Source: Sulfurimonas sp.
GTDB taxonomy: Bacteria > Campylobacterota > Campylobacteria > Campylobacterales > Sulfurimonadaceae
Assembly (NCBI GenBank): GCA_028689055.1
Contig: JAQTWZ010000001.1
Span: 19,674 to 83,673 of the forward strand
Reading direction: 5' to 3'
DNA length: 64,000 nucleotides
Shown: piece by piece, positions 1 through 9,822 of the stretch
Layout of the letters: every line of letters starts with the position of its first letter
Position numbering within the stretch: position 1 is the first letter of the stretch
Program-made: the position numbers and the translations under genes
Notes under the pieces: generated by a model
Told to the model about the DNA's origin: nothing
What the model saw: only the letters and a program-made list of their open reading frames with translations
The model's database searches: none

Positions 1-294
1 CATATAAATACTCAAGATTTTTTAAATGATTACTCACCAGACAGTGAATATTTGCCCGTACCTACTGAAAAAATTTATATATTTACAGAAAATCAAAAAA
101 ATGCGTATAGGGGACTTGGAGAATGGTACTATAGATGGAGAGGTGATATTCAAGGAAATATAAAAGGCTGGGTTGCAATATATAAGTTAAATCATGATAA
201 TATCCGCGAATATTATAAGACAAAGACAATTACGGTGTATGAAATTGATAATCGTGACTATATTGAATATTTACGAAAAAAGGCTAACAATTGA
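1..294 (+). CDS. Partial unknown protein (C-terminal end only)
   Basis: The reading frame is open from the first base of the window to the stop at 292-294, so this is the tail (about 97 residues) of a gene that begins to the left. A TTG at 52 could serve as a start, but the open frame upstream makes a truncated view more likely. The visible part is polar and rich in Tyr, Asn and Lys, with several aromatic residues around EWYYRWRGDIQG. I recognise no domain. Its stop overlaps the TTG start of the HD-GYP gene, so it is probably the upstream member of the same operon, which suggests a role in the same surface-polysaccharide or signalling locus. That role is inference. Confidence 0.6.
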   Translation, partial: HINTQDFLNDYSPDSEYLPVPTEKIYIFTENQKNAYRGLGEWYYRWRGDIQGNIKGWVAIYKLNHDNIREYYKTKTITVYEIDNRDYIEYLRKKANN

Positions 295-1796
295 GTATTT
301 TTGAGCAAAGTAGAGACTATCTTAATAATGTATTGCCAGAACAAATTTCGTCTATTTTTGAACTAATTAATCAGTTCTTAGGTCAATACTGGTGGATATT
401 TGTTATAGTGGCCTTCATTATGTTTTTGGTAGCAATGCGATATTTTAGAAAGAGTATCCAGCAAAGAGTGGAAGCTCAAGCAATAGATGAAAGTCTAAAA
501 AAACTTAGTACTAAAAAAGATATTAAAAGTGTTGGGGAAGTATTATTAAAAAGTGCTGAAATAATTAAATCGCATTATATAGCATTGTATGAATTAAGAG
601 GTGAAACATATGTTCTAATTGAATCAAACATTGCAGAAAACAAAGATGCATCTATTTCTCTTAGAGTTGCAAAAAGAGAAATAGCTAACATTACAGAAAG
701 TGGCAAATATATAATAGATGTTTTTATTGGTAATAACAATAATTACATGATTCTTTTTTATTCAAAACAAAAATTAGATAGACAAAAGTTTGCCGGTTAT
801 TTGGATGTTATGTTAAGTTACTATGGCGCTATCTCAGATATTTTTAAAGCAAAAGGCGCAGACGCTTTGCTTAGTATGAGTAAAAGCACTTCTGTATCAT
901 TAATGAAATTACAAATGGACAATAAGCAATTTTTAAATTTTTTTGTTGCTTTGATTATGAAAATTAGTGATGCAAAAGGCGCTAAATTACTCACTAAATT
1001 GGATGAACCTATGTATGTTTATCTTAATAATTTTGATTACCCTTTACAGAAGACATTTTATATAAGAAATACACCCTATAAACTAGAATTTTATGACAAC
1101 AAAGAGTTGGATAGAGAAAAGATGATACAAATAGGTTCTTTTTTAGATACTGCTGGTTCTTTTTTAGTTAATATGGATAGTAAAAGTGAGATGGTTAGAA
1201 ATTATTTAGAGTTATTAAAATTTACTAATGAAGGTATGGAGTTAGGAAATGAATATTATCGTGATCATTCTTTGATGGTGCAAACTATATCTGTTGAAAT
1301 TGCTAAATCATTATACTTGTCTGAATCAGAGATAGATGCAATTTCCATGGGAGCATATTTACATGATATAGGCATGATTGGTGATGTGTTTTCTGTTCTG
1401 GAAAAAGACAATATTGAAGAGAGCGATATGAACCTTATTAAAGAACACCCACTTATAGGAAGTGTTATAGTAGAACCTATTTCACATGTATATCCTATTA
1501 CTGAAATTATAAAATATCATCACGAAAGATATGATGGTAAAGGATATCCTTTTGGCCTTAAAGATGCTGAAATACCATTGAATTCGCAAATTGTTGCTCT
1601 TGGTGAATTTTATACGGGAATAATTGGGGATAGACCTTATAGAAAAGGAAAAACTCATGAGGAGGCTTTAGTTGAAGTTGATAAAATGAGAGATAAAATG
1701 TTTGCTTCAGTAGTCGTTGATGCTTTTCTAGATGTTGAAAAGTCATTAAATAATAAAATAAATAAAATTAGGTTTAAATGGAATAAGAATGATTGA
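291..1796 (+). CDS. Membrane-anchored HD-GYP domain protein (probable c-di-GMP phosphodiesterase)
   Basis: HD-GYP proteins hydrolyse or sense cyclic di-GMP. This 501-residue protein has one transmembrane segment (about residues 33-50), a long middle part that could hold GAF-like sensory domains, and a C-terminal HD-GYP domain. Visible motifs are RDHS (about 322-325), LHDIGMIGD (about 356-364), HHERYDGKGYP (about 410-420) and DRPYR. The usual HDIGK lysine is Met here, while the GYP signature and metal-binding His/Asp residues are kept, so activity is plausible but not certain. It starts with TTG overlapping the previous stop, and its last 8 bases overlap the glycosyltransferase gene. This tight coupling suggests that it controls the downstream glycan genes. 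Confidence 0.85.
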   Translation: MSIFEQSRDYLNNVLPEQISSIFELINQFLGQYWWIFVIVAFIMFLVAMRYFRKSIQQRVEAQAIDESLKKLSTKKDIKSVGEVLLKSAEIIKSHYIALYELRGETYVLIESNIAENKDASISLRVAKREIANITESGKYIIDVFIGNNNNYMILFYSKQKLDRQKFAGYLDVMLSYYGAISDIFKAKGADALLSMSKSTSVSLMKLQMDNKQFLNFFVALIMKISDAKGAKLLTKLDEPMYVYLNNFDYPLQKTFYIRNTPYKLEFYDNKELDREKMIQIGSFLDTAGSFLVNMDSKSEMVRNYLELLKFTNEGMELGNEYYRDHSLMVQTISVEIAKSLYLSESEIDAISMGAYLHDIGMIGDVFSVLEKDNIEESDMNLIKEHPLIGSVIVEPISHVYPITEIIKYHHERYDGKGYPFGLKDAEIPLNSQIVALGEFYTGIIGDRPYRKGKTHEEALVEVDKMRDKMFASVVVDAFLDVEKSLNNKINKIRFKWNKND

Positions 1797-2829
1797 TAAG
1801 TTAAATAGCATAAATGTAGCAGTCGTAATACCAAGCTATAAGGTAAGACCTTTTTTAAAGGATGTTGTGCTAGGACTTCCTGCGTATGTAGATTTTGTAA
1901 TAGTTGTTGATGATAAATGCCCTGACAAATCTTATGAAGTACTTGATGGTGTCAATGAGATAGAAATTCAATATAATGAAGCTAATGAAGCTGTTGCTCC
2001 TTTCAAATCTAAAAAAAAGATTGTATATATTATTCATCATGAAGTTAACCAAGGTGTTGGTGGTGCTATGGTCAGTGGATATAAAAAAGCATTGGAACTT
2101 GAAGCAGATGTGATTGTCAAAGTTGATGGTGATGGACAAATGGACCCTAAATTTATGATACATTTATTAGAACCTTTAATAGAAAACAGGGCTGATTATA
2201 CTAAGGGAAATAGATTTAGAGATTTAGAAGCCTTAAAGTCTATGCCTAGTATTAGACTTTTTGGAAATAGTGTTTTATCATTCCTTGTAAAAGTTGCAAG
2301 TGGTTATTGGACCATTATGGACCCTACTAATGGATATACAGCTATATATAAAAATACACTGGAAAAATTGCCACTTGATTCATTAGATAAACGATATTTT
2401 TTTGAAAGTGACATCCTAATCAATTTAAACATTACAGAAGCCGTTGTTAAAGATGTTGGTATGCCCGCAAAATATGGAGATGAAGTTAGCTCATTAAGTA
2501 TTAAAAAGACTCTTTTAGATTTTCCAAAAAAACTTTTAAAAGGATTAATTAAAAGAATAAAATTAAAATACTTTATATATGATTTTAATGCTGGCTCACT
2601 TTATACAGCAGCAGGCTTACCGTTGTTTGCCTTTGGTATATTATATGGTATCAAAACTTGGATTTTTACTCCAAGTACAAATATAACGGCTGGAACAGAC
2701 TTGATGATAGTGTTACCAACAATTTTAGGGCTACAATTTTTGTTACAAGCTATTAACATAGATATTAAGTCAGAGCCACAGAAAGATCTTGACATAAAAA
2801 TAGCATTATTAAAAAAGATAAGTGAGTAA
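1789..2829 (+). CDS. Family 2 glycosyltransferase with C-terminal membrane segments
   Basis: The N-terminus carries the GT-A fold start NVAVVIPSYKVR (about residues 9-20) and a VDDK acidic pair. The metal/nucleotide-sugar binding DGDGQMDP follows at about 112-119, as in dolichol-phosphate-mannose-type GT2 enzymes. A hydrophobic C-terminal region (about 265-320) probably spans the membrane twice. At 346 residues it has the length of membrane-linked polyprenyl-phosphate glycosyltransferases. It likely transfers a sugar from a nucleotide donor to a lipid carrier or glycan at the inner face of the cytoplasmic membrane. It overlaps the HD-GYP gene by 8 bases and is followed after 11 bases by a flippase-like membrane protein, so the three form one transcription unit. 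Donor and acceptor cannot be told from sequence. Confidence 0.85.
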   Translation: MIDKLNSINVAVVIPSYKVRPFLKDVVLGLPAYVDFVIVVDDKCPDKSYEVLDGVNEIEIQYNEANEAVAPFKSKKKIVYIIHHEVNQGVGGAMVSGYKKALELEADVIVKVDGDGQMDPKFMIHLLEPLIENRADYTKGNRFRDLEALKSMPSIRLFGNSVLSFLVKVASGYWTIMDPTNGYTAIYKNTLEKLPLDSLDKRYFFESDILINLNITEAVVKDVGMPAKYGDEVSSLSIKKTLLDFPKKLLKGLIKRIKLKYFIYDFNAGSLYTAAGLPLFAFGILYGIKTWIFTPSTNITAGTDLMIVLPTILGLQFLLQAINIDIKSEPQKDLDIKIALLKKISE

Positions 2830-2840
2830 AAAGATGTATT

Positions 2841-3752
2841 ATGAAAAGTAAAGTCATTCAAATTTTGTTTTTATTATTAATTGTCTTTTATATTATTCAT
2901 GATTTTAATGTAGAGAAGATTAATCTTTCTATTGTTTCATGGTGTGGGGTGATGCTTACAAGCTTTGTAGTATTTTTGGGCCAACTTGCATTGTCGCTCA
3001 GATGGATGAAAATGTCAAAAATTTCATTTAAAATTTCTTATGAAACTATAACTGTTTCGACAGCACTCAATATGATACTACCAGCCAAATTAGGTGAATT
3101 ATCAAAAGCACTTTATATGAAAAAGTTTTATAAGTATAGCTTTCATAGGGGAATTTCTTTAGTCTTTGTTGAAAGATTTTTTGATATTATTATCCTCTTT
3201 CTTCTCATGTGTTTTTGGGCATATTTATATTTTTCAAGCCCAGCTATAAAAAATGGTATTATTGGTTTATCTATATTAATTATTTTTATAATTATTTTTT
3301 TTAAATCTAGAAGAATTTTGTTATTTCTTAAGAAAATACCATTTAGATTTTTAAGAATATACTCTCAAAAAATATATAACAATGTTAATAAAATATTAAG
3401 AGAACCGTTTTCTGTATTTAGTTTAACCCTCTTAGTTTGGCTAATATACTTTTTAGCCTCATTTGTATTTTTTAGTTATGCCGTAAATTTTGGGTTAAAC
3501 TTTGAAAATATATTAGAACTTTTTATTTTTTCAACAATTGCATTTGCAATTCCTTTGACTCCTGCAGGTGTTGGTACATTTCAAGCTGTTGTTATGCTTT
3601 TTTTAGAGAATCATGGAGTTGGGAAAGAAGATGCTTTTGTTAGTGCTACTATATATCATATTGTAATGTTTGCTGTGTATTTTCTATTATTGGTAATTTT
3701 TTTATATAAAAAAGATATGAAGTTGAAAGATATAATAAAGATAAAATCATGA
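2841..3752 (+). CDS. UPF0104 / lysylphosphatidylglycerol synthase-type membrane protein
   Basis: This is a 303-residue, highly hydrophobic protein with about eight predicted membrane spans. It has the family pattern of the flippase-like TM domain of MprF/AglD: SLRWMKMS early, NMILPAKLGELSKALYMKK near residues 75-95, ERFFDIIIL at about 110-118, and AIPLTPAGVGTFQAVV near 235-250. The E-x-x-K and ER-x-x-D elements are typical of UPF0104. Members move or modify lipid-linked compounds and often sit beside GT2 glycosyltransferases, as here. It overlaps the next gene by 4 bases (ATGA). It probably translocates a lipid-linked glycan made by the neighbouring glycosyltransferase, but this rests on context only. 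Confidence 0.8.
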   Translation: MKSKVIQILFLLLIVFYIIHDFNVEKINLSIVSWCGVMLTSFVVFLGQLALSLRWMKMSKISFKISYETITVSTALNMILPAKLGELSKALYMKKFYKYSFHRGISLVFVERFFDIIILFLLMCFWAYLYFSSPAIKNGIIGLSILIIFIIIFFKSRRILLFLKKIPFRFLRIYSQKIYNNVNKILREPFSVFSLTLLVWLIYFLASFVFFSYAVNFGLNFENILELFIFSTIAFAIPLTPAGVGTFQAVVMLFLENHGVGKEDAFVSATIYHIVMFAVYFLLLVIFLYKKDMKLKDIIKIKS

Positions 3753-5188
3753 TAAGATTCAACCGAAGCAAAAAAATATTTTTAGTTCTTTTATTAATGT
3801 TTTCAGAGTTTGCATTTGCTGCTGATAAAAACTCGTTTTTATCAGCTAAAGATAAATACATTATAATTTCAGAAGTAAGTCAAAATAATTCAATAAAGTA
3901 TAAAAAAGGTGATTTCGCTACCGCAGTATTATTTAACAATAAAGGTGATACTCAATGGGCAACAAAATTTGATATTGTTCAAACAGGCGGGCTTTATGAT
4001 AGGGATATTGATTATAATTTATTAAAATCAAAAGGCTTACTTGATATAAAGCATCTAGTAGGCTATGATTGGATGCCTGCTTTTTATTATTACAAAGATG
4101 GCTCAAGCGAAGACTTCGTTAAATGGTTGCATACCAATAAAAATACTACTACTTTAAATCCTAATGGTCCTTTTACTCATTGTGTGCGCAATAATTACGA
4201 TTGGTGTGAAGATTATTATTATAATTACTTTGATGAAGATGTTGTCAATAAAAGAGTAGATAATTTAGTCATTAATATGAAAACAAAAGGTTTCAACGGA
4301 GTGTTTTTTGATTGGGGTTCTGCTAAATTTTTATTAGAAACTGAAAATCAAGAAATAAATCAATACACTTTAGCGAAGTATCCACAAGAAAAATATTTAC
4401 ACACAGTTGAAAATTTTTATAGTAAATTAAAGAAAAATAATGTTTTTATAATTACAAATCAAGCTTTTAGAGATGATTTATTATTATCTAATGTAAACTA
4501 TGATATGACAGAAAGTTATATTACAACGACACAAAATATAAAAATAAATGCTAATATCCAAGGAAAAGGTTTCGTTGATAATGCTGATATTACAAGGTAT
4601 TATCCAATCTATAAAGATTCAAAGACGATAGAAGACTCTTTATACTTCATCAATATATTAGATGATTATAAAAAGAAATATAAAAAAGATGGATTTCAAA
4701 ATTTTATCTATATGAATTATATAGCTCCAAAATATATCAAAATTAAGAATACAAATACTTACGTGCAGGTAGAGCCAAAAAATGCGATTTATTATGGGTA
4801 TGCGATGGGAAAACTTTCCGACAGCATTGTATATGCTGAAGTTCCACAAGATAGAACTTTAGAAAGAAATGAAATATATTTTTATGACTTAGGTTCTCCA
4901 TTAGGAGAAAAGTATCAAAAACTTGATGCTGTCAATGGTTATATACGTTTTTATACAAATGGTTTTGTTTTAGTTAGTAATGCCTATGAAGAGACAAAGT
5001 ATATCAACATTATTTCTTCATTAATACCTGAAAATATTCAGATTTTTGATGCATATCAAAAAGAGTGGATAAAAAGTAAAGATGGAGAAGTTATTGTAAA
5101 ATTGGTTTTTGAGAAAGAAGTGCTTACTGATAAATCTTTGCCATTAGGTAGAGTTTTTTTATACAATCGATATAAACAAGTTCAATAA
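3749..5188 (+). CDS. Secreted TIM-barrel glycoside hydrolase-like protein
   Basis: The first 25 residues form a Sec signal peptide (basic start, LVLLLMF core, AFA cleavage site). The mature part (to residue 479) has the pattern of putative TIM-barrel hydrolases of the GHL15/GH114 type: a strand ending GFNGVFFDWGSAKFL (about residues 178-192) with a candidate catalytic Asp, then FIITNQAFRDD and DMTESYIT further on. I cannot assign a substrate; the family label is inferred from this pattern. It would act in the periplasm or outside the cell on the glycan made by the preceding genes, as hydrolase partners do in exopolysaccharide loci such as pel. It is the last gene of the block. Reading in the same frame past its TAA stop gives 20 more open codons (to about 5248), which may be chance. 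Confidence 0.65.
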   Translation: MIRFNRSKKIFLVLLLMFSEFAFAADKNSFLSAKDKYIIISEVSQNNSIKYKKGDFATAVLFNNKGDTQWATKFDIVQTGGLYDRDIDYNLLKSKGLLDIKHLVGYDWMPAFYYYKDGSSEDFVKWLHTNKNTTTLNPNGPFTHCVRNNYDWCEDYYYNYFDEDVVNKRVDNLVINMKTKGFNGVFFDWGSAKFLLETENQEINQYTLAKYPQEKYLHTVENFYSKLKKNNVFIITNQAFRDDLLLSNVNYDMTESYITTTQNIKINANIQGKGFVDNADITRYYPIYKDSKTIEDSLYFINILDDYKKKYKKDGFQNFIYMNYIAPKYIKIKNTNTYVQVEPKNAIYYGYAMGKLSDSIVYAEVPQDRTLERNEIYFYDLGSPLGEKYQKLDAVNGYIRFYTNGFVLVSNAYEETKYINIISSLIPENIQIFDAYQKEWIKSKDGEVIVKLVFEKEVLTDKSLPLGRVFLYNRYKQVQ

Positions 5189-5213
5189 CCGTCGTTAGTT
5201 CTTTATGATTTAT

Positions 5214-5259
5214 TAGACTTCTTGTGGAATCTAGTTTGTGGGCTTATGTAAGAAGTCTA
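5214..5259. repeat. 10-bp perfect inverted repeat with 26-base spacer
   Basis: TAGACTTCTT at 5214-5223 is matched exactly in reverse complement at 5250-5259. It lies in the 164-base gap between the hydrolase-like gene and the J-domain gene, at the junction between the AT-rich left block and ordinary genome. It could be a weak terminator stem or a scar of an inserted element. There is no T-run after the second arm. Confidence 0.45.
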
Positions 5260-5352
5260 CTGATAAAGTAAAAGACCCATACGAAACTGGCAGAAAATTT
5301 TTGGAATCAAAATTGCTACTAATGAAAAAATACGTTATCATAAGGTAGAGCT

Positions 5353-6156
5353 ATGGAGATTGTTTTACGTAACAACCTTATATTGATTACCACGAATTTT
5401 GACACTTTAAACAGTTCGTGGATGAAGGAGTTTTTGGGTCATCATTCCCGTGGCATGCTCTTTTTGCCAAAGGCTGTTTTGGTCTTTAGAAATGAAAGTC
5501 TCAAGGAGATTCGAGAAGAGTTTCTGCATCAGTTGAGCAGATATCACGCTTCTGTACATGATTTTTCGCATGAGTTTTTTTTGCGTTCTATGTTGAGATA
5601 TGGTTCACAGCCTATCAAAATAGAGCTACATGAGCTAGAAGATACACAAAATGTTCAGGTAAAGCTTTATGCTTATGACAAAAATACCGTTCTTATCACA
5701 CTTGACAAGCCAAACGCATGGGTTATCAGCTATATGCGCTCGCAGCTTGATGTTTATGTAGAGAGGGGAACGGATATCTCGTTAGTTGTGGATGTGTCGG
5801 ACTATAAAGCCAAAGCAAGGTTGGAACGTGCACTGGGCAAACGCCATATCTTGCACTACAATATCCAATATACTTTTGATAACCACTTCATGAGCAAGCT
5901 TTATTCAGATTTTGCCAGTTTTTCTTTTGGTGATTTGTGTAGAGAAGAGGCAGAAGAAGAGAACAAATATTTTTATACAGTTTTGGAATGTCCCGTCGGT
6001 GCCAGTCAGGATGCTCTGAAAAAAAGCTACAAAAAACTCACCAAAGTCTATCATCCCGACAAGGTCTTTCACGAGTGCCCGCATATGTTGCAGCACTATA
6101 CGCAAAAGTTTCAGCTTCTTCAAGAAGCCTACACCGCACTACGTGTTGTTAGTTGA
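5353..6156 (+). CDS. J-domain protein (C-terminal DnaJ domain)
   Basis: The last 60 residues of this 267-residue protein form a J-domain: FYTVLECPVGASQDALKKSY, then KVYHPDK with the HPD tripeptide at about 234-236, then a final helix. J-domains stimulate the ATPase of DnaK-type Hsp70 chaperones. The first 200 residues resemble no domain I know and have no membrane anchor, so this is a specialised co-chaperone rather than DnaJ itself. The domain stands at the C-terminus, as in DjlA-type proteins. Its stop overlaps by 8 bases the stop end of the convergent DUF234 gene. An AAACGCA heptamer at 5712, the leftmost in the window, lies inside it. Confidence 0.8.
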   Translation: MEIVLRNNLILITTNFDTLNSSWMKEFLGHHSRGMLFLPKAVLVFRNESLKEIREEFLHQLSRYHASVHDFSHEFFLRSMLRYGSQPIKIELHELEDTQNVQVKLYAYDKNTVLITLDKPNAWVISYMRSQLDVYVERGTDISLVVDVSDYKAKARLERALGKRHILHYNIQYTFDNHFMSKLYSDFASFSFGDLCREEAEEENKYFYTVLECPVGASQDALKKSYKKLTKVYHPDKVFHECPHMLQHYTQKFQLLQEAYTALRVVS

Positions 6157-8942: not shown

Positions 8943-9822
8943 AAAATTTATCGGTGCTCATGTAAGTGCGAGCGGTGGTGTTTTTAATGCACCTATAAAC
9001 GCAACGGCGATAGGCGCAAAAGCTTTTGCCCTTTTTACGAAAAACCAGAGACAGTGGGGTGCTAAAGAGCTAGACACTGAGACGATAGATAAGTTCAAGC
9101 ATGAGCTACAAAAAAGCGGGATTTTGCCAAAACATATCTTGCCTCATGACTCTTATCTCATCAACCTCGGGCATCCTGATGTCGAGCAGCTGGAAAAATC
9201 ACGTGCTGCGTTTATCGATGAGTTGGAGCGATGCGCGCTTTTGGGACTCGATAGACTCAACTTCCATCCGGGAAGCCACTTGGCGAAAATCACCAAAAAA
9301 GAAAAAGAAAATCCTACCATCATCAAACCCATAGAAGATGTTTGCCTTGACACTATCGCTGAGTCTATCAATATCGCTTTGGATAAAACGCAGGGTGTCA
9401 AAGCGGTGATAGAAAACACCGCAGGACAGGGAAGCAACCTTGGCTGGCGTTTTGAGCATCTTGCCCATATCATCGACAAGGTAGAAGACAAATCCCGCAT
9501 CGGAATCTGTATCGACACCTGCCATATGTTCACCGCAGGATACGACATCAGAACGCGTGAAACGTATGATAAAACATGGGCAGAGTTTGAGAAAATCGTC
9601 GGGTTCAAATACCTCATGGGGATGCACATCAACGACTCCAAACCGCCGCTTGGCTCCCACGTGGATAGACACCATTCTCTGGGAAAAGGTGAGATAGGTC
9701 TGGATGCGTTTCGTTTTATCATGAACGATGAGCGGATGGATGATATCCCACTTGTACTCGAAACAATTGATGAGACTATTTGGAAGCAAGAGATAGAACT
9801 TTTGTACTCGTTTGTGGATTAA
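8935..9822 (+). CDS. nfo: Endonuclease IV (apurinic/apyrimidinic endonuclease)
   Basis: Zn-dependent AP endonuclease of base-excision repair, which nicks 5' of abasic sites. The 295-residue TIM barrel shows the family signatures in order: GAHVSASGG at the start, [54 protein letters not shown] and LVLETID, which supply the His/Glu/Asp ligands of the three zinc ions. It starts inside the end of the lipoprotein gene (8-base overlap). Length is normal for the family, and no oddity is seen. Confidence 0.95.

Follow-up and report, generated by a model that had tools for sequence, protein, structure and literature searches.

The genes for synthesis of the Pel polysaccharide are arranged as pelABCDEFG in Pseudomonas aeruginosa and as pelDEADAFG in Bacillus cereus, and their product is a partly deacetylated alpha-1,4-GalNAc polymer. 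PelD is a receptor with transmembrane (TM), GAF, and degenerate GGDEF parts. Control of exopolysaccharide synthases by c-di-GMP is known to involve PilZ, degenerate GGDEF proteins (PelD and BcsE), or PgaCD (PMC8461298). For sulfate reducers, a membrane protein has been described that could replace PelD (PMC10553843), and PMC7112194 mentions Gram-positive loci in which PelF and PelG alone were identified. Searches of the open-access literature yielded no description of an operon of the pel type that includes an HD-GYP protein.

The operon analyzed here contains such a combination. It is real, conserved, Pel-related, and probably acquired, and an altered HD-GYP protein appears to occupy the place of PelD.

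Organization of the operon

The window is the whole stretch of 64,000 nucleotides of DNA that was analyzed (G000:C14:19674-83673, with G000 being the genome of the window). Its left edge cuts an operon of nine genes, A to I, so that the window holds the distal half, and the left-neighbor region is L002. An earlier note on this DNA had listed five overlapping or nearly touching genes at this end, encoding an “unknown protein,” an HD-GYP protein, a GT2, a UPF0104 flippase-like protein, and a secreted TIM-barrel hydrolase. Five open reading frames on the plus strand were indeed present, at positions 1-294, 291-1796, 1789-2829, 2841-3752, and 3749-5188. All neighbors in the operon overlapped or were separated by no more than 11 bases:

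Gene A: left of the window (L002); 591 aa, outer-membrane protein of the OEP/TolC family
Gene B: 4.1 to 5.7 kb left of the window start; 504 aa, DUF3492 plus GT4, PelF type
Gene C: 2.6 to 4.2 kb left of the window start; 522 aa, matching PelG weakly over the full length
Gene D: left of the window (L002); 440-aa lipoprotein with a lipobox (by eye) and an OmpA domain
Gene E: from 18432 in L002, then 1 to 294 of the window, plus strand; membrane protein of about 721 aa with a predicted GT-C fold
Gene F: 291 to 1796, plus strand; inner-membrane HD-GYP protein, 501 aa, one N-terminal TM helix, altered catalytic site
Gene G: 1789 to 2829, plus strand; GT2 with C-terminal TM helices
Gene H: 2841 to 3752, plus strand; UPF0104/LPG_synthase_TM flippase-like membrane protein
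Gene I: 3749 to 5188, plus strand; secreted putative glycoside hydrolase, 479 aa

The HD-GYP, GT2, and UPF0104 labels agreed with matches to HD_5, Glycos_transf_2, and LPG_synthase_TM, respectively. Pfam contained no match at an E value of ≤0.1 for the first (part of gene E) and the last (gene I) protein of the window. The “unknown protein” was in fact without a Pfam match, but the frame at 1 to 294, which is open at the left, represents the last 97 codons of gene E and hence the C-terminal end of a membrane protein with a predicted GT-C fold. Gene E is broken by a gap in the assembly (100 N) that adjoins the left edge of the window. An intact copy of 721 aa is located at L028:12909-15071 in Sulfurimonas sp. 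GWF2_37_8 (L028), the PelG of which is 98% identical to that of the window operon, and comparison with this copy indicates that the assembly lacks a part of gene E at the N gap. In gene D, the OmpA domain was the sole matching part.

A scan for promoters and terminators near gene A yielded one promoter-like site, which is the level found in shuffled sequence, and no terminator. A scan of positions 1 to 5400 was uninformative, with 44 promoter-like sites versus 35.9 expected and 4 terminator-like sites versus 1.2. By their sequence, genes A to I form one tight unit, the A-to-F portion of which is conserved.

PelF- and PelG-like proteins

The earlier note had compared the genes with synthase-dependent exopolysaccharide loci, and this likeness was supported, as was the existence of a real, conserved glycan operon containing a c-di-GMP-type protein. 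The same note had stated that PelF and PelG were missing and that the set matched no known locus. Extension of the sequence to the left overturned the first statement, with PelF- and PelG-like genes located left of the window, and did not support the second, because these upstream genes place the operon near the Pel kind. Gene B matched DUF3492 with 135.6 bits (cut-off, 23.3; E, 3.7e-39) and Glycos_transf_1 (E, 2.8e-28). PF16933 (PelG) was matched by 11 of 13 gene C members with a best E value of 1.6e-8, the protein of the window operon itself being below the cut-off (20 versus 29 bits). Comparison by hhalign of the gene C profile with PelD-type PelG gave no useful alignment, and the PelG membership of gene C is therefore derived entirely from Pfam. 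The PelF proteins of the operon formed a single group on a branch of 2.2, at least 60% identical to each other and about 24% identical to the PelD-type PelF proteins of the same order.

PelD (PF16963) was present in 36 of the 199 genomes of the order, two of them from the genus of the window, and was found neither in G000 nor in any of the 10 operon carriers. This negative association was not significant alone (Fisher p, 0.21). All seven PelD-bearing congener regions examined (L064-L070) contained PelF, and none of their proteins was matched by the profiles of genes C to F. A gene-by-gene scan of L064 showed PelD, PelF, a full-score PelG (423 bits), and LpoB-like and TPR proteins. None of the nine operon proteins had a Pfam match to TPR or LpoB-like families, the PelB/PelC/PelE signatures. 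A polysaccharide deacetylase gene (PF01522) was present in relatives only and not in the locus of the window. The left-hand genes thus came halfway to the known pel locus that the earlier note had named as a refutation: they are PelF- and PelG-like, but not a standard pel locus. Ordinary pel membership was rejected because PelD is absent, and Pel was kept as the nearest kind. The operon appears, at the level of its sequence, to encode a PelF/PelG-type machine outside the pel locus as PelD defines it.

Conservation and co-occurrence

Two samples were used, 199 genomes of the order and 397 genomes of the phylum, with Campylobacterota as the sampling range. The duplicate records L020 = L034, L019 = L031, and L122 = L037 were each counted once. 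Gene C occurred in 10 of the 199 order genomes and in none of the 8 other genomes of the genus of the window. Exactly the same 10 genomes carried gene E (hypergeometric p of about 5e-17, with kinship ignored), and gene I was present in all 10 carriers, in G071, where the contig begins within the operon, and, reduced to a scrap of 61 residues, in G125. Co-occurrence of these genes elsewhere, as expected of the single module proposed in the earlier note, was thus found, and the strict co-occurrence of genes C, E, and I largely ruled out chance clustering. In the phylum sample, gene E was found in 8 of the 397 genomes. A PelG scan of named genomes gave 12 loci, all titled as Campylobacterota (Sulfurimonas, Arcobacter, Helicobacteraceae, and other MAGs), and a plasmid collection searched with gene E gave no match.

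The order A-B-C-D-E-F was kept wherever the contig permits, and in all 16 genomes that could be judged, the gene directly after E, or after its tandem copy, was gene F; L034 was left out of this count, its locus ending inside the second E copy. G426, from another family and absent from profile building, showed the identical A-to-F order. Downstream of F, the genes differed among relatives. Most named relatives continue with a short GT2, DUF2304, a FemAB-like protein, a polysaccharide deacetylase, UPF0104, and gene I, and several possess a gene for an HlyD-type adaptor. The window and L028 share a long GT2, UPF0104, and gene I, and in L029, GtrA stands in the place of gene H between a long GT2 and gene I. 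In genomes of family f18, gene I is located elsewhere, in two of them beside a second E copy and away from PelFG.

Composition and insertion site

The GC content was 28.2% at positions 1 to 5188 versus 39.6% at 5353 to 64000, and 28 to 30% in the whole operon versus 39 to 40% in the flanking stretches. These values and the counts that follow agree with the earlier description of the segment as AT-rich, devoid of the heptamer TGCGTTT, and acquired in appearance. The window contained 108 copies of this heptamer but none at 1 to 5188. Outside the operon, it was 7-fold above the trinucleotide expectation and occurred 1.0 to 2.5 times per kb around the operon, whereas the whole operon (12.5 kb) contained 1 copy versus 1.1 expected, which is the chance level. 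L028 displayed the same pattern of enrichment around the operon and chance frequency within it. In five congener regions around dnaJ, the density was 0.07 to 0.23 per kb. The low GC content and the missing lineage-specific heptamer support a recent entry, and this lineage has probably acquired the operon recently. Among 20 congeners that had a dnaJ match, 10 regions were examined, and all 10 contained dnaJ and an adjacent DUF234 gene without the module. There is no simple empty site because rsmE lies elsewhere in those ten congeners; five of them have it on the contig of dnaJ, at a distance of at least 56 kb.

The HD-GYP protein

Gene F matched HD_5 in Pfam (E, 1e-22), and its profile matched PmGH (4mcw) with an E value of 4.8e-25. 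The numbers of the PmGH metal ligands were fitted to the printed 4mcw chain by a constant offset. On this numbering, gene F keeps H189, H221, D222, H250, H276, and H277, which are six of the eight metal ligands, and it also possesses the GYP motif, the HD, and both HH histidines. All 17 gene F members (14 alignment rows plus L071, L077, and L123) have Met in place of K225, the lysine of HDxxK, and Glu in place of D305, the last metal-ligand Asp. E185 is replaced by Tyr in the 14 alignment rows and by Asn in L123. Five paralogues of gene F exist in its own genome, four of them alignable; the Asp is kept in all four and the Lys in three, L017 being the paralogue without it, and the site of L016 is intact. 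The first 300 residues or so of gene F gave no family match above chance and showed no similarity to PelD, and a status of gene F as a PelD homologue was ruled out (hhalign probability, 0.3%).

Given this fixed alteration of the site, a receptor or a specialized enzyme gains in likelihood over a standard phosphodiesterase. With six metal ligands kept, gene F could still be an enzyme. The presence of an HD-GYP protein suggests that the operon may be under c-di-GMP control.

Predicted glycosylation proteins and putative hydrolase

Gene E matched no Pfam family, and a PDB sequence search with its profile gave no match. Its predicted structure was of low confidence (pLDDT, 59.4). The first 12 Foldseek matches of this model were OST/STT3 or PglB. 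With VIA-align, the best 33 matches, including OST/STT3, PglB, and ArnT, were GT-C proteins or GT-C-like GPI-transamidase subunits with Z scores from 19.5 to 10.3, and the first unrelated match was FtsW (Z, 7.7). In GT-C enzymes, an acidic loop follows the first helix, and the conserved DPxSDT segment of gene E (D185) has this position within the matched region. Gene E is thus predicted from the model to be a membrane protein with a GT-C fold.

Gene G matched PF00535 (Glycos_transf_2; E, 1.8e-12). Its best NCBIfam models were AglJ (E, 5e-14) and PpgS (E, 1.5e-8), both far under the cut-offs, and a PDB sequence search with its profile gave no match. The product is probably a polyprenyl-phosphate sugar synthase of the GtrB/AglJ type. 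Gene H matched PF03706 (LPG_synthase_TM, UPF0104; E, 3.1e-34) and, above the cut-off, the flippase-like TIGR00374. Genes E, G, and H, with a predicted flippase role for H, look like a three-component periplasmic glycosylation set, and three-component systems of matching anatomy are described as decorating polysaccharides (GT136 systems, PMC11127046). Linkage in the operon suggests that gene E may act on the Pel-like chain.

A signal peptide is likely in gene I (by eye), and D188, N237, Q238, R241, and E255 are invariant across 12 relatives. Compared by hhalign with PelA of PelD-type loci, the invariant stretch gave a weak alignment to the N-terminal part, the hydrolase (E, 3e-4; probability, 40%); the corresponding motifs are GFxGxFFDW and ESY in gene I and GFxNFFFDTLD and ESL in PelA. 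In the PelA hydrolases of P. aeruginosa and B. cereus, the catalytic Glu is E218 and E213, respectively (PMC7112168), and E255 of gene I may be its counterpart. The structure model was poor (pLDDT, 53.5), with one Foldseek match below an E value of 0.001 and TM-scores of <0.3 for the listed matches, and it was not used as proof. A PDB sequence search with the gene I profile gave no match. The hydrolase of the earlier note is thus probably secreted, with weak PelA-hydrolase-like motifs, but because of the poor model, its TIM barrel is a motif-level assignment. Gene I is regarded as a secreted putative glycoside hydrolase with motifs distantly like those of the PelA hydrolase.

Predicted function and alternative explanations

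The operon, distantly related to the system that makes the Pel biofilm polymer, probably serves to build, decorate, and trim a sticky surface polysaccharide. A nine-gene, Pel-related, synthase-dependent exopolysaccharide system, with F gating the synthase, E, G, and H decorating the chain, and I trimming it, is the reading that is slightly favored. The steps beyond gene content are inferred. In the cytosol, the PelF-type enzyme encoded by gene B would polymerize a sugar nucleotide, and C, the PelG-like protein, would move the chain through the inner membrane. The HD-GYP protein F would bind c-di-GMP and gate the synthase and would thereby take the role of PelD, to which it is unrelated. G would load a sugar onto undecaprenyl phosphate, H would flip the lipid-linked sugar, and E, on the periplasmic side, would attach it to the chain as this emerges. 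Passage of the chain across the periplasm and the outer membrane would fall to D and A, and I would trim or release the polymer like the PelA hydrolase.

Alternatively, gene F may be an active c-di-GMP phosphodiesterase, perhaps with altered rate or specificity, that functions as a local brake or trigger, with the synthase sensing c-di-GMP elsewhere or not at all. The six ligands, the GYP motif, and both HH histidines would fit this, as would the ability of Glu to bind metal and the paralogue L017, which likewise lacks the Lys, and a role of HD-GYP proteins as trigger phosphodiesterases has been raised as a possibility (Hengge 2016, PMC5052742). Both exchanges are nevertheless fixed across families, unlike the situation in most paralogues, and an enzymatic role is considered unlikely, although it deserves more weight than any other alternative. 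Rather improbable is that E, G, and H form a set for glycosylation of proteins or of the envelope that only shares the operon, or that E itself is a polymerase or ligase. The nearest folds to E, OST and PglB, glycosylate proteins, the second E copy beside gene I occurs away from PelFG in two genomes of another family, and the genes downstream of F vary; E, however, belongs to the A-to-F core, and is confined to genomes with the PelG-like gene, and the set has the anatomy of systems known to decorate polysaccharides (PMC11127046).

An ordinary Pel locus producing a linear GalN/GalNAc polymer, with a PelD diverged past detection, would explain the PelF/PelG pair and the PelA-hydrolase-like gene. 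Against it, PF16963 detected PelD in many genomes of the order and never in G000 or the carriers, F is unrelated to PelD, PelF is highly divergent, and Pfam indicated no TPR or LpoB-like protein, leaving this explanation very little probability. Even less, close to none, is left for unrelated sugar genes that came to lie side by side in an AT-rich island by chance: the variable genes after F would agree with it, but the A-to-F order is identical across several families, including G426, and C and E share the identical 10 genomes.

If the gated and decorated synthase is the correct reading, the altered HD-GYP protein as a fixed partner of a synthase operon would be an additional type of c-di-GMP receptor, and free-living Campylobacterota (Sulfurimonas and relatives) would gain a candidate matrix polymer. 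Because a GT-C/GT2/flippase set is located within a Pel-type operon, this polymer is predicted to be branched and not linear. Only tentatively, the operon may represent a separate Campylobacterota branch of Pel-type machines, in which the synthase has the altered HD-GYP protein as its c-di-GMP receptor, the chain is branched in the periplasm by the GT-C system, and export is TolC-like.

Comparison with known systems

New here are the altered HD-GYP protein in the place of PelD and the GT-C glycosylation set; the Pel-type kind was already known. Like a Pel locus, the operon is tight and contains a pair of PelF-type and PelG-like genes, a c-di-GMP-type inner-membrane protein, and a putative PelA-like hydrolase. 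Unlike a Pel locus, it is without PelD and without a PelB/PelC/PelE signature, its PelF is distant, an HD-GYP protein replaces the degenerate GGDEF protein, and a TolC-like outer-membrane protein and GT-C, GT2, and flippase genes are added. Gene F resembles the HD-GYP phosphodiesterases PmGH (4mcw) and PA4781 (4r8z) in its fold by profile, in six of eight ligands, and in the GYP motif, but differs from them in the fixed Met and Glu and in the residue at position 185. The E-G-H set shares with GtrA/GtrB/Gtr GT-C of Shigella and Salmonella and with the GT136 systems a polyprenyl-phosphate-charging GT2, a flippase, and a GT-C transferase, as predicted from sequence and model. In contrast to these systems, its flippase is of the UPF0104 type, with GtrA in L029 only, and the set is placed inside a Pel-type synthase operon.

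Different histories of the module and its flank

Gene by gene, the nine-gene module was 92 to 99% identical to the locus L028 of Sulfurimonas sp. GWF2_37_8, with the value for gene E, which encodes a GT-C-fold membrane protein, taken from its two matched stretches. The upstream flank (positions 9753 to 12088 of L002, the stretch directly left of the window) was only 79% (rsmE) and 88% (moeA) identical to L028, so the histories of module and flank differ.

In the window, the heptamer TGCGTTT occurred 108 times versus 11.4 expected from dinucleotide shuffles, an approximately 9-fold excess. The stretches rich in it were:

Window, 5189-64000, TGCGTTT-rich
L002, 5770-12272, TGCGTTT-rich

It was likewise dense in the flank of L028 and almost missing from the five congener regions around dnaJ (0.07 to 0.23 per kb). 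TGCGTTT has been amplified specifically in this lineage and may be a signal, either uptake-like or linked to repair.

Genes E and I in other genomes

Gene E was present twice in tandem in G018 (L025, 11420-16010), both copies being interrupted by in-frame stops at identical positions, and also in L034 (6511-10542), where the contig ended within the second copy. In two genomes of another family, a second copy of gene E adjoined gene I, the putative secreted hydrolase gene, apart from the PelFG locus:

L073, 6195-9576, gene I and second E copy
L074, 7660-11032, gene I and second E copy

This adjacency hints that genes E and I work jointly. A C-terminal scrap of gene I (61 residues; L063, G125:C1:209188-209364) in a congener may be the remnant of a lost module.

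Pel loci of congeners

PelD-type pel loci were present in two congeners (L064 and L065), and the last open reading frame of L064, cut by the end of the stretch examined, was similar to the TolC-like gene A (E = 4.8e-7).
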